This document shows positions 962 to 4,792 of a stretch of DNA of 5,134 bases, in pieces. Numbering within the stretch: the first letter of the stretch is position 1; the number at the start of each line of letters is the position of its first letter. The notes under the pieces are model-generated. The model saw nothing but the letters and a program-made list of their open reading frames with translations, was not told the DNA's origin and made no database searches. Both the position numbers and the translations under genes were made by a program. Origin of the DNA: Candidatus Thorarchaeota archaeon (GTDB lineage: Archaea > Asgardarchaeota > Thorarchaeia > Thorarchaeales > Thorarchaeaceae); the NCBI GenBank assembly GCA_016840825.1, contig JAEORN010000262.1, positions 1 to 5,134 of the forward strand, given 5' to 3'.

Positions 962-981
962 AAAAAAGAGTGAGAAGAAGA

Positions 982-1608
982 ATGGACCCACAAGATGAGC
1001 ATATTGACATTCACAGCGAACTTTTATCATATGCAGAAGTCCTTCGATTCTTCCAAGAGCTGGAAAAGAGTGGGGCTGTAAAGTCATACTGCAATGGGTC
1101 CAATGTTTCAGGTAGATGGATCTTTCAGATTTTCAATAAGGAGTTCATAGAAGAACTGGCTCAGGTTATTAACAGAGCATTGGGTCGGAGAAGAAAGAAA
1201 CCGCCGGTACTTGAAGTAATGAGTGGTGATGGACGGCTTACCGAGTTCTTGCGTCCCTTGCTTAAAAGACAGTGTATTGCAACAGACAGCAAAGACGGAC
1301 GTTATAATATCGGATATCCAAAATGGGTAGAAACACTCGATGCGATGGAGGCTATTTCGAAATTTTCACCTGCGTTCATTGTCATTTGTTGGGAGCCCTA
1401 TCTATCGATGACAGGGATAGATATTGTAAAAACAGGAGTACCGACAGCATGGATAGGAAATCCAAACATGTGTGGTCATACAGACATCTTTGAACAACCA
1501 CACATTCCTTTGCAGAGTCGATATGCTCTAAGTAGACATGATTACTTCCTCGCGAAGGACTTCAAAACAGACATTTACTTCTTCAACTGCAAACCTGAGT
1601 GGATCTGA
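982..1608 (+). CDS. Methyltransferase-like Rossmann-fold protein
   Basis: A 208-residue soluble protein that looks like a class I SAM-dependent methyltransferase; the substrate is unknown. An N-terminal helical region (about 1-70) precedes the fold. Strand 1 and the glycine-rich loop read VLEVMSGDGRL (76-86), strand 2 ends in the ribose-binding-type acidic residue Asp102 (IATDSKD), and the motif IV-like strand reads FIVICWEPY (132-140). The glycine loop is atypical: the usual ExGxGxG first glycine is Met80, so SAM binding is not assured. The C-terminal half contains a distinctive AWIGNPNMCGHTDIFE stretch (156-171). The frame can be extended to a GTG at 970, adding MRRR; the ATG at 982 is preferred because a TATA-like element lies at leaderless spacing. 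It is followed after 77 nt by the gene at 1686 on the same strand, so the two may be co-transcribed. A regulatory or non-catalytic Rossmann protein is the alternative. Confidence 0.75.
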   Translation: MDPQDEHIDIHSELLSYAEVLRFFQELEKSGAVKSYCNGSNVSGRWIFQIFNKEFIEELAQVINRALGRRRKKPPVLEVMSGDGRLTEFLRPLLKRQCIATDSKDGRYNIGYPKWVETLDAMEAISKFSPAFIVICWEPYLSMTGIDIVKTGVPTAWIGNPNMCGHTDIFEQPHIPLQSRYALSRHDYFLAKDFKTDIYFFNCKPEWI

Positions 1609-1685: not shown

Positions 1686-2627
1686 ATGGTCAAGGCAGTA
1701 GTCGATGCTGTGGACATCGACCCAAAGACTGGAACTACTCTAGGATACTACACATTCGGAGAAGAGCGTCCAAATGTATTCATCTTGGCAGCCATGAACG
1801 GTCGTTCAGCTACTGACATCTATGCAAGCTATCTCGTCATGAAACATCTGGAGAATCTGGAAAGAATCGATGGGTCTGTAACATTTCTTCCTGTGGCGAG
1901 TCCCCTTGCATTTCGATTACGAGCAAAGATATCACCACTTGACTCCAAGGATCTTGACACAATATTTCCTGGAAACGAGCATGGAACAGTGACTGAGAGG
2001 ACTGCATGGGAGATTTGGCGTCGAGCATCACAAGCTGATTATATCATAAACCTACGTACTGGATGGCAGAACTGTACCAGTCACTTGGTTGCAATGCACA
2101 GAGACTACATACATGTGAGAAATCTTGCTTCACAAATCGGTCTCCCTTATGTTTTTCAATCAACGGGAATGAGAGGAGCCCTTACAACTGAAGCTGCACA
2201 CGAAGGAATACCAGCTGTTTCTGTAGAAATGAGGGGAGATACTGATCAGGTAGATTCGCAGGCGGCTGTTGAGGTGAGAGAAGCAATCCTCAATCTCTTG
2301 CGTACAAAGGATATGATTGTTGGAGAAAAAATAGAAGCCTCAAACACCCTCGTGGGAAGATTACAGCAAGTAAATGTGGACACAGAGGGTTTCTTTGTTC
2401 CAACCGTCAATCTAGGAGAAACTGTAAAAAATGGGGATGTGTTAGGTCACGTACAGGACAAGAATGAGATAATGACCCCCTTTGACGGTGCAGTGATTTC
2501 ATTGAGTAGAATCAATTATGTGTTCGAGGGAGATATGATTGCACGTATCGCCGCTCCACTTAGCGACCAATGGACTTCTATGGCGGATGAGCAAGAAGAG
2601 TCCATGCCAAAGAGAAGGAAATGGTGA
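1686..2627 (+). CDS. Succinylglutamate desuccinylase/aspartoacylase-family protein lacking the zinc site (likely pseudoenzyme)
   Basis: A 313-residue protein with the whole family layout. Active members are zinc-dependent carboxypeptidase-fold (M14-like) amidases that remove acyl groups from amino acids. Expected landmarks are present in order but altered. HGDE (two zinc ligands) is replaced by NGRS (38-41). DLNRxFPG becomes DLDTIFPG (89-96), losing the substrate-binding Asn-Arg. DLHTG (third zinc ligand) becomes NLRTG (122-126). The catalytic-glutamate region remains as AVSVEMRG (177-184, Glu181), and the C-terminal beta domain is intact (GFFVPTVNLGETVKNGDVLG, 235-254; PFDGAVIS, 265-272). 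The frame is open and full length, so this is not simple decay: a non-catalytic binding role or a different chemistry is inferred. The ATG at 1686 is preferred over the in-frame TTG at 1668 because GAAGGT (1674-1679) precedes it by 6 nt. The end overlaps the next gene by 7 nt, suggesting translational coupling. Confidence 0.88.
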   Translation: MVKAVVDAVDIDPKTGTTLGYYTFGEERPNVFILAAMNGRSATDIYASYLVMKHLENLERIDGSVTFLPVASPLAFRLRAKISPLDSKDLDTIFPGNEHGTVTERTAWEIWRRASQADYIINLRTGWQNCTSHLVAMHRDYIHVRNLASQIGLPYVFQSTGMRGALTTEAAHEGIPAVSVEMRGDTDQVDSQAAVEVREAILNLLRTKDMIVGEKIEASNTLVGRLQQVNVDTEGFFVPTVNLGETVKNGDVLGHVQDKNEIMTPFDGAVISLSRINYVFEGDMIARIAAPLSDQWTSMADEQEESMPKRRKW

Positions 2628-3070
2628 TAGTGAACAGCGAGTGCAATCAGGCGCAATACTTGATGAGAATGAATGTTGGAGATAAACACCTGAGAGAGAA
2701 TCCTAATCTCCTATTGATTGGAAGCTGCATGGATAGGTTTCCGGAAATAGTGAAGGAGATTTGCGAGAAGGAGAAGAGTCAATCAACCCTTCACATCTGC
2801 CTTGAGGAAACTCATGCCAACCAAGCAGGTTTCAAGATAGGTTCGATAGTGAAGTACTCTAGCATCAAGAAAGTAACAGTTCTGACAATAGATGGAAGTC
2901 CCCACTGCGTTCAGCTCCATTATGTTATAGAAGATATCAAACGTCACTTTGCACCTGAGATAGAAACAGCTCATTATGTCATAGAGAAGGGAAAACTGTT
3001 TGAGATTTCAGCTGAAGCAGTGAAACGCTCGAGACATTTATCCCAAATTCAGAAGTTGATTGATGGATAG
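2621..3070 (+). CDS. Conserved-looking small protein with DGSPHC motif, function unknown
   Basis: A 149-residue soluble protein. I do not recognise a named family. Visible signatures are GSCMDRF (34-40), DGSPHCVQLHY (91-101), HYVIEKGKLFEIS (118-130) and a basic helix, VKRSRHLSQIQKL (134-146). The two cysteines Cys36 and Cys96 and the histidines His95, His100 and His118 could form a metal, nucleotide or redox site, but nothing proves it. The alternating strand/helix pattern (LLLIGSCMD, VTVLTIDGS) suggests a small alpha/beta domain. The start at 2621 overlaps the stop of the aspartoacylase-like gene by 7 nt, so the two are almost certainly co-transcribed and probably work together. The start is not firm: the ribosome-binding site is poor for 2621, and the in-frame GTG at 2630 or ATG at 2663 are alternatives upstream of the motif region. 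A decayed copy of the C-terminus lies at 3433-3525. Confidence 0.8.
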   Translation: MVIVNSECNQAQYLMRMNVGDKHLRENPNLLLIGSCMDRFPEIVKEICEKEKSQSTLHICLEETHANQAGFKIGSIVKYSSIKKVTVLTIDGSPHCVQLHYVIEDIKRHFAPEIETAHYVIEKGKLFEISAEAVKRSRHLSQIQKLIDG

Positions 3071-3141: not shown

Positions 3142-3408
3142 ATGCCAAAATGTCCACACTGTTCTGAGGAATTAAGAATAAAACTCGCGGGATTATTTGT
3201 GTATGAAATTGATGATGAGTACTGGTCTCAAATTGAAACGTTTATTCAGCGGTTGCCAAAATTTTCTAGAATAGCCTTCAAGTCACGTATGGGAAGAGAG
3301 AAAGATCAGATAGAGAGAGAGCACCCTCCTTTAGTCAATCTATTAGTTTGCTCGTACTGTGATAATGTCATAGGTGCAGAAATACAGAAAATGGTTCCCA
3401 GTTACTAA
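3142..3408 (+). CDS. Small zinc-ribbon protein, function unknown
   Basis: An 88-residue protein with two CxxC knuckles, CPHC (4-7) and CSYC (70-73), that together could bind one zinc ion as a zinc ribbon interrupted by a 62-residue insert. The insert is charged and probably helical (DDEYWSQIETFIQRLPK, 24-40), with a basic stretch (FKSRMGREK, 46-54). The N-terminal knuckle followed by EELRIKL resembles many archaeal zinc ribbons, but the partner or target (nucleic acid or protein) cannot be told. The ATG at 3142 is preferred to the TTG at 3124: it places CPHC three residues from the N-terminus, and the TATA-like element at 3113-3120 fits leaderless initiation there. The gene is flanked by the DGSPHC gene upstream and its relic copy downstream. 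Confidence 0.75.
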   Translation: MPKCPHCSEELRIKLAGLFVYEIDDEYWSQIETFIQRLPKFSRIAFKSRMGREKDQIEREHPPLVNLLVCSYCDNVIGAEIQKMVPSY

Positions 3409-3534: not shown

Positions 3535-4113
3535 TCATAGTTTTGGGAGGATGAACCCTGCAGTCTTCTTGTATTCAAGGTACTCATCCCCGTAATGCTT
3601 CATGAGCTTTCTTTCTTCAATATATGCACCAATCATAGTGTAACCAATCATACTTAGAGAAAAGACAATCACAACGGGAAATGGGTAGATGAGTGCTAGA
3701 GCCAAAAATACAAGGACTGTAGCCAAGTATAATGGGTGTCGGATTCGGGAATAGATTCCATCAGTGATGAGCTCTGCTTTCCTATCCGTTCTCATATCCG
3801 CAACTGTACTAACTGATATCACTCGAGATGCTATCATTGACAGAACTACTCCTACCAGACCTGATAGAATTCCAAGTACAAACAAGAGGGGTTGAATCAG
3901 TGTTGGTTGTGTGATGAAGTAGATCCAGTCCCAATAGTTCATCGATAGAAATGCAATCAGAAGTGTGAGAACACTCGTTGTGCTGAATATTTTGGCATAA
4001 CCCTCTTTGCCCCATCTATCAATAAGTCTCGTCTTAACACGCAGCGCTGAAAGACCAGAGTGCTGCAATCCAAACAGCGCGGATGCCAGGATAACGATAA
4101 CATACTCAATCAT
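3535..4113 (-). CDS. Integral membrane methyltransferase, NnrU/ICMT (isoprenylcysteine methyltransferase) superfamily
   Basis: A 192-residue membrane protein with about five hydrophobic helices (roughly 2-16, 43-58, 73-97, 129-146 and 147-164). The C-terminal half carries the SAM-binding signature of the ICMT/phospholipid methyltransferase group: TDGIYSRIRHPLY (117-129), with the Arg-His-Pro core at 125-127, then the acidic pair in IEERKL (165-170) and YGDEYLEYKK (174-183). The N-terminus (LFGLQHSGLSALRVK, 13-27) resembles NnrU and the related MddA-type methanethiol S-methyltransferases. Members transfer methyl groups to membrane-embedded or small hydrophobic acceptors; the acceptor here cannot be predicted (lipid, prenyl group, quinone or thiol). 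No isoprenylated protein substrate is visible nearby. The gene is divergent from 4220 across a shared operator-like region, and its 3' end converges on the relic at 3433-3525. The start ATG at 4113 has no strong ribosome-binding site. Confidence 0.88.
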   Translation of the reverse strand: MIEYVIVILASALFGLQHSGLSALRVKTRLIDRWGKEGYAKIFSTTSVLTLLIAFLSMNYWDWIYFITQPTLIQPLLFVLGILSGLVGVVLSMIASRVISVSTVADMRTDRKAELITDGIYSRIRHPLYLATVLVFLALALIYPFPVVIVFSLSMIGYTMIGAYIEERKLMKHYGDEYLEYKKTAGFILPKL

Positions 4114-4219: not shown

Positions 4220-4792
4220 ATGATTGAAGCAGCAAGGAATCCCTTTTCTCCCATGGAGATGTGGGATGATACAATGGTCACCGTAAATGAAGGTGAAGAG
4301 AAGAAGAGAGTGGATGCCAAGCATTACAGAATCCGCTATCTGGTTGGAGAAAGCGAAGATAAGAGATTTATCGACGGCGGCAGTGATGACATCGCTGAAT
4401 TGAGTGAGAAGACCCTGTTCCTATCACCATCAGTTCATCGGCTCGCTGGAGATCCATTCCACTACGATCATTCGAAAGTGGAGAGCATAAGTGGAAAGAC
4501 AAGGATTTCTGAGAGAACAAAGGAATTGATTCGTCATCCAGCTTGTGAGGACCACAAGACAATCGAAATCATCTTTGAGAGTCCGGGAGTTGAGTGTTGT
4601 GCCATGTCAAAGGAGCAAGCTGACAATATGCGTGTCCCACTCCAATATATGGCAGGATATATGCTCGGTAAAAGTGAGGGGTTGTTGAAAATAGCTCTCT
4701 CGAAGACGGTTGTTGACGAAGGAACTGAGTACTACGATAATATCCACATAATCCCGGAGTCAGCAGTCAAACAGATGTCTTGTCTGGAATGA
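4220..4792 (+). CDS. Unrecognised soluble protein, 190 residues
   Basis: I do not recognise a family. The protein is soluble, acidic in its N-terminal half, and has no signal peptide, membrane segment or obvious helix-turn-helix. Visible elements are a strand-rich start (DDTMVTVNEGEEKKR, 16-30; HYRIRYLVG, 35-43), a His/Asp-rich segment (GDPFHYDHS, 77-85), ISERTKELIRHPACEDH (96-112), a strand plus cysteine pair (IEIIFESPGVECCAMS, 115-130), and a C-terminal helix and strand region. Cys109, Cys126, Cys127 and Cys188 and several histidines could bind metal, but they do not form a known motif. The start is fixed by GGTGA 7 nt upstream. It is divergent from the membrane methyltransferase gene, with a shared 11-bp-arm inverted repeat between them, so the two may be co-regulated. 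Codon pattern and the full-length open frame support a real gene. Confidence 0.75.
   Translation: MIEAARNPFSPMEMWDDTMVTVNEGEEKKRVDAKHYRIRYLVGESEDKRFIDGGSDDIAELSEKTLFLSPSVHRLAGDPFHYDHSKVESISGKTRISERTKELIRHPACEDHKTIEIIFESPGVECCAMSKEQADNMRVPLQYMAGYMLGKSEGLLKIALSKTVVDEGTEYYDNIHIIPESAVKQMSCLE

Follow-up and report, generated by a model that had tools for sequence, protein, structure and literature searches.

A zinc-less aspartoacylase relative conserved in Thorarchaeota is very probably a non-catalytic protein

In human aspartoacylase, zinc is bound by His21, Glu24 and His116, and the catalytic site comprises Arg63, Asn70, Arg71, Tyr164, Arg168, Glu178 and Tyr288 (PMC5412892). Pseudoenzymes of the M14 type are known from eukaryotes, namely the pseudopeptidases AEBP1, CPXM1, CPXM2, domain III of CPD and Ecm14 (PMC11266112; for Ecm14, PMC7706225). 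The pseudopeptidase review links M14 pseudoenzymes to collagen binding, and its table gives one remaining zinc ligand for CPD-III, two for AEBP1 and CPXM2, and three for CPXM1 and Ecm14 (PMC11266112). The review covers M14 cases, and aspartoacylase, succinylglutamate and archaea are not mentioned in its main text. In searches of open-licence literature, whose listings were read in part, no title or abstract describing the zinc-less family treated here was found, which is not proof that none has been published. The current study concerns a gene at positions 1686 to 2627 of a 5,134-nucleotide stretch of DNA (the window; contig JAEORN010000262.1) from a Candidatus Thorarchaeota archaeon. Its product, annotated in Thorarchaeota as a zinc-dependent amidohydrolase, has very probably ceased to be a catalyst and taken on a new function.

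The window protein scored 47.8 bits against the PF24827 profile (AstE/ASPA family), above the cut-off of 25, and 45.6 bits against TIGR02994 (DoeB/EutE equivalog), far under the cut-off of 402.7. Structure prediction gave a confident model in which the AstE/ASPA fold, comprising the catalytic and the beta domain, is kept. A search with the protein returned 199 relatives, the 120 listed being at least 66% identical, and relatives carry the database labels 'succinylglutamate desuccinylase/aspartoacylase family protein' or 'predicted deacylase'. The gene and its motifs are as follows:

1686..2627, + strand: ASPA/AstE-fold pseudoenzyme, 313 amino acids plus stop
1797..1808, + strand: NGRS (residues 38-41), in place of the HG[DN]E zinc ligands of intact relatives
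1950..1973, + strand: DLDTIFPG (residues 89-96), with the Asn-Arg pair of intact DLNRVFPG changed to Asp-Thr
2049..2063, + strand: NLRTG (residues 122-126), with the third zinc ligand, that of DLH, changed to Arg
2220..2237, + strand: SVEMRG (residues 179-184), catalytic Glu181 present
1707..1751, + strand: AVDIDPKTGTTLGYY (residues 8-22), N-terminal hairpin, conserved in the zinc-less clade only
2100..2123, + strand: RDYIHVRN (residues 139-146), conserved in the zinc-less clade only
2253..2282, + strand: DSQAAVEVRE (residues 190-199), part of a helix, conserved in the zinc-less clade only
2613..2624, + strand: C-terminal RRKW (residues 310-313), behind a low-confidence linker

Residues were compared by aligning 57 zinc-less rows with 75 intact relatives, the latter a non-redundant subset of 120 that were listed out of 640 matches; a larger tally covered 155 distinct zinc-less rows. 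Nine residues (H38, E41, R81, N91, R92, D122, H124, Q165 and F167) were fixed in 75/75 intact rows, and at all nine columns the commonest residue of the 57 zinc-less rows was a different one. The zinc triad, retained by all 75 intact relatives, was present in none of the 155 zinc-less rows, five of which showed a lone stray His at column 38 or 124. The window protein has N38, S41 and R124 at the zinc-ligand positions, and D91, T92 and K81 in place of the Asn-Arg pair and an upstream Arg; from the motif context, the Arg of column 81 is read as the probable equivalent of aspartoacylase Arg63. A few rows of the clade retained residues of the intact site (Arg81 in 16/57, Asp122 in 3/57 and Asn91 in 2/57). 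The catalytic Glu (ASPA Glu178 equivalent) is E181 in the window protein and was retained in 146/155 zinc-less rows, being gone from nine of the 57-row set. An earlier note on this DNA had observed replacement of the zinc ligands and the Asn-Arg pair with retention of the catalytic-Glu region (SVEMRG), and this observation is confirmed. Because the AstE/ASPA family has an established dependence on zinc, the protein presumably no longer hydrolyses N-acyl amino acids.

The ratio of non-synonymous to synonymous substitution rates (dN/dS) was calculated for 42 coding sequences, of whose 861 pairs 14 were usable (dS 0.05-1.5). The median was 0.049 and the maximum 0.079; for the window against loci L001 and L005 (dS 0.96 each) the values were 0.042 and 0.034. 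The gene is thus under strong purifying selection and is not decaying. The same note had proposed a pseudoenzyme family, which would fail if the closest relatives had an intact site and selection were relaxed; the substitutions proved to be common to the clade, the closest relatives are also zinc-less, and selection is strong, in agreement with that proposal.

Most relatives with a named source organism come from Candidatus Thorarchaeota; a few bear the label Lokiarchaeota, Hodarchaeota or Promethearchaeota. Nine genomic loci of relatives were all from Thorarchaeota, with one zinc-less copy in each of the nine genomes; five of these also encode a more remote paralogue in which the motifs read HGIE and [MI]HT. 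PF24827 was also searched for in 12 genomes, of which ten encode the zinc-less protein, and several of the 12 contained further family members. When 227 Asgard genomes were searched (E 1e-5), 50 had a match and 43 had a full-length zinc-less copy; these 43 probably represent the thorarchaeal lineage. In four genomes (G012, G013, G015 and G180) the match was a relative whose HG[DN]E, DLNR/DMNR and DLH motifs are intact, two (G021 and G022) had a more distant HGDE relative, and G216 had a contig-end fragment with the last 43 residues of the pseudoenzyme. The gene seemed to be absent from three other genomes because the contig stops at the neighbouring gene (G200 and G206) or because the genome is a 0.6 Mb fragment (G223). 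From their neighbour genes G200, G206 and G216 appear to be Thorarchaeota, as G223 may be, and the pseudoenzyme is apparently present in all Thorarchaeota genomes whose assembly spans the locus.

In a tree made by a quick method (SH-aLRT support, midpoint root, several long branches among the intact rows), all 57 zinc-less rows formed one clade with support of 100 and a stem of 1.02 changes per column, sister to the intact proteins P0121/P0122 (support 97). The simplest reading is one loss of the zinc site on a long branch leading to the ancestor of Thorarchaeota. The precursor would have been an enzyme akin to the intact sister (P0121/P0122, L045 and L046, called 'Baldrarchaeota type' because a source names the relative P0126 so), from which the zinc site and the substrate Asn-Arg pair were lost in that ancestor.

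The ancestral pseudoenzyme would also have gained a conserved N-terminal hairpin, the YIHVRN segment, the conserved part of the helix, and a disordered linker with RRKW at its end. The strongest conservation peculiar to the clade was found at residues 8-22, 139-146 and 190-199, which are unconserved in intact relatives; in the helix, Q192, V195, V197 and E199 were nearly fixed. R311, K312 and W313 were invariant in the 57 zinc-less rows, behind a linker (residues 294-309) with a mean entropy of 2.84 bits, and the RRKW tail was missing from 75/75 intact relatives. In a search of six genomes for open reading frames ending in RRKW and a stop, all those outside the family were 75 amino acids or shorter.

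Over 42 loci (the window plus 41 pseudoenzyme genomes, all of the 43 except G225 and G226), R310 was encoded by all six Arg codons, with Pro in one locus, and K312 by AAA in 30 and AAG in 12. This codon diversity indicates that selection on RRKW acts at the protein level. It is rejected that the tail is conserved solely because its codons supply translation signals (a start codon or ribosome site) for the following gene, since AAG at K312 leaves no ATG in 12/42 loci, all six Arg codons occur at R310, and three loci retain RRKW without the DGSPHC gene downstream; loss of that gene in the three loci may be recent, and overlapping translation signals may contribute to the conservation of RRKW. 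It was also observed that, at 2613-2627, the RRKW codons contain ATG (within AAATGG) in 30/42 loci, this ATG being where the following gene starts in the window, and that these codons are AGG-rich, such that protein and translation signals may use common bases.

Two neighbouring genes on the same strand encode candidate partners of the pseudoenzyme:

970..1608, + strand: class I methyltransferase-like protein, upstream neighbour
2621..3070, + strand: DGSPHC-family protein (PF27217 precomputed for relatives), whose start codon overlaps the last codons of the pseudoenzyme

The gene position is conserved. The DGSPHC gene lay directly downstream on the same strand in 39/42 loci, its place being taken in L009, L079 and L081 by the next conserved gene, 32-74 bases downstream. 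The methyltransferase-like gene was found in 34/42 loci, in 31 of them no more than about 100 bases upstream; L075, one of the eight loci lacking it, ends at that point of the contig. Profile matches to it were obtained in 40/43 pseudoenzyme genomes and at contig ends in G206 and G216; another four Asgard genomes gave matches that were partial or weaker (E 2e-21 to 8e-7). No Pfam family scored above its cut-off for the methyltransferase-like protein of the window, for which weak methyltransferase matches lay below; its conserved motifs lie around LEvMSGDGR, WEP and WIG, of which WEP and WIG were invariant in 19 aligned members.

Several further features of these loci were observed. The methyltransferase-like family is almost confined to pseudoenzyme genomes. 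In L005 the DGSPHC gene (6933-7382) contains an in-frame stop codon, its start may lie farther downstream, and it is followed by a second short DGSPHC-like piece. Farther along the window, a small CxxC-containing protein (3142-3408) was seen in 3/42 loci only (window, L001 and L005), a PEMT/isoprenylcysteine-methyltransferase-like protein (3535-4113, minus strand) in 38/42, and a 190-amino-acid protein (4220-4792) in 37/42, the last with no Pfam family (best E 0.073, below cut-off).

Evolutionary rates were compared through distances over 25 loci which have all six genes (the window excluded), each pair being conditioned on the other four. The partial correlation of the pseudoenzyme was 0.66 with the methyltransferase-like protein and 0.44 with DGSPHC (0/2000 permutations each), 0.07 with the ICMT-like protein and 0.09 with p190; that between the methyltransferase-like protein and DGSPHC was -0.08. 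These values are suggestive of a hub role for the pseudoenzyme and are not proof of it.

The favoured explanation, which is given an even chance of being correct, is that of a non-hydrolytic AstE/aspartoacylase pseudoenzyme of single origin which serves as a protein-binding scaffold or regulator of its operon partners, with RRKW used for docking. It would bind proteins, most likely scaffolding or regulating the upstream methyltransferase-like protein, and the downstream DGSPHC protein may be a further partner in most species; RRKW would be a short linear docking motif. Within the zinc-less clade, columns 38, 81, 92, 122, 124, 165 and 167 were among the more variable ones (73rd percentile or higher), and mean entropy was 1.59 bits at ten catalytic columns, 0.59 at 17 other columns invariant in intact relatives and 0.98 over all columns. 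Variability of most former catalytic columns therefore favours protein binding over conserved pocket chemistry, though not decisively. On this ground the earlier suggestion of a fold kept for ligand binding is less favoured.

Several observations weigh against this explanation. The excess variability of the ten columns was modest (307/20000 random sets), and the choice of columns was partly guided by the changes themselves; with the seven positions taken from human aspartoacylase, no significant excess was seen (4510/50000). Column 41 was Ser in 154/155 and column 91 Asp in 152/155 zinc-less rows, and part of the old pocket is thus still constrained. No methyltransferase match was found in G192, G197 and G209 despite the presence of the pseudoenzyme, and no DGSPHC match in G009, G201 and G215 despite a pseudoenzyme with RRKW, although these assemblies may be incomplete. 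In G194, G217, G210 and G212 the methyltransferase match was at a distance from the pseudoenzyme gene or on a different contig. Rate correlation was not specific to binding, as ICMT-like/p190 gave 0.57 and ICMT-like/TFB 0.44 (0/2000 each), and the controls pseudoenzyme/TFB and methyltransferase/p190 gave 0.28 (79/2000 permutations) and 0.22. The proposal that the co-encoded DGSPHC protein is the partner draws weak support from its position and rate correlation, but the correlation with the methyltransferase-like protein is higher, three pseudoenzyme genomes have no DGSPHC match, and the zinc-less protein is missing from 29 of the 70 Asgard genomes in which DGSPHC was matched.

A small-molecule sensor is a rather unlikely alternative, in which the old pocket would bind a metabolite without cleaving it, a basic residue at position 124 would replace the charge of zinc, and the signal would pass to the operon partners. 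Judging from the homologous fold, residue 124 would point at the former place of the zinc; it was Arg or Lys in 146/155 rows, and the near fixation of Ser41 and Asp91 and the conservation of Arg139 and Arg183 (57/57) would also suit such a pocket. However, columns 38, 81, 92, 122, 165 and 167 were variable, and residue 124 was non-basic or His in 9/155.

Conserved residues could alternatively belong to a retooled enzyme with a new active site, through another metal site or a chemistry based on Ser41, Arg/Lys124, Arg183 and the conserved His and Cys residues. Besides Ser41 and Arg183, C130 (153/155), H138 (154/155), H143, D12, D86 and E169 (155/155 each) were kept. This alternative is considered unlikely, as C130 was replaced by Val in two rows, H133 by Tyr in six and H138 by Tyr in one, Glu181 has been lost from some members, and most former catalytic columns are variable. 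A decaying gene or an annotation artefact, for which loss of the catalytic residues and nothing more would speak, has practically no likelihood and is rejected, given the dN/dS of about 0.05, the full-length copy in 43 genomes, the invariant tail and the confident fold.

The protein-binding pseudoenzyme thus remains the preferred explanation. An extended form of it, put forward tentatively as an unlikely but specific proposal, is a module of Thorarchaeota in which the zinc-less aspartoacylase-fold hub controls the undescribed methyltransferase and the DGSPHC protein through RRKW, an archaeal amidohydrolase having turned into an enzyme-activating subunit; the DGSPHC protein is rich in cysteine and histidine and its fold is possibly carbonic-anhydrase-like. 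The pseudoenzyme appears to have arisen once, early in one Asgard lineage, and the intact sister persists in other Asgard genomes; the change from catalyst to non-catalyst is therefore open to direct comparison. Current labels may insert a false hydrolase into metabolic reconstructions of Thorarchaeota.

Compared with the AstE/ASPA amidohydrolases (PF24827; DoeB/EutE 6twm, 3cdx and 2qj8; human aspartoacylase 2i3c), the thorarchaeal clade lacks the zinc triad and the Asn-Arg pair, Arg81, Asp122, Gln165 and Phe167 are no longer fixed, and the RRKW tail and the conserved N-terminal hairpin are gains. In the Baldrarchaeota-type sister, P0121 shares 38% and P0122 39% identity with the window protein, and L045 and L046 have C130, HRE and RGxL..EAS features in common with the zinc-less clade. 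The sister differs in that its HG[DN]E, DLNR/DMNR and DLH motifs are intact and it lacks the RRKW tail; no methyltransferase-like or DGSPHC gene was present in the flanks examined, although G012 and G013 have a DGSPHC-family gene elsewhere. The M14 pseudopeptidases resemble the thorarchaeal clade in combining an M14-type fold with catalytic loss in conserved genes. They are eukaryotic carboxypeptidases, and according to the table of the review none of the five lacks all three zinc ligands (PMC11266112), whereas the thorarchaeal clade is archaeal, belongs to the AstE/ASPA branch, has lost all three ligands and carries a linear C-terminal motif.
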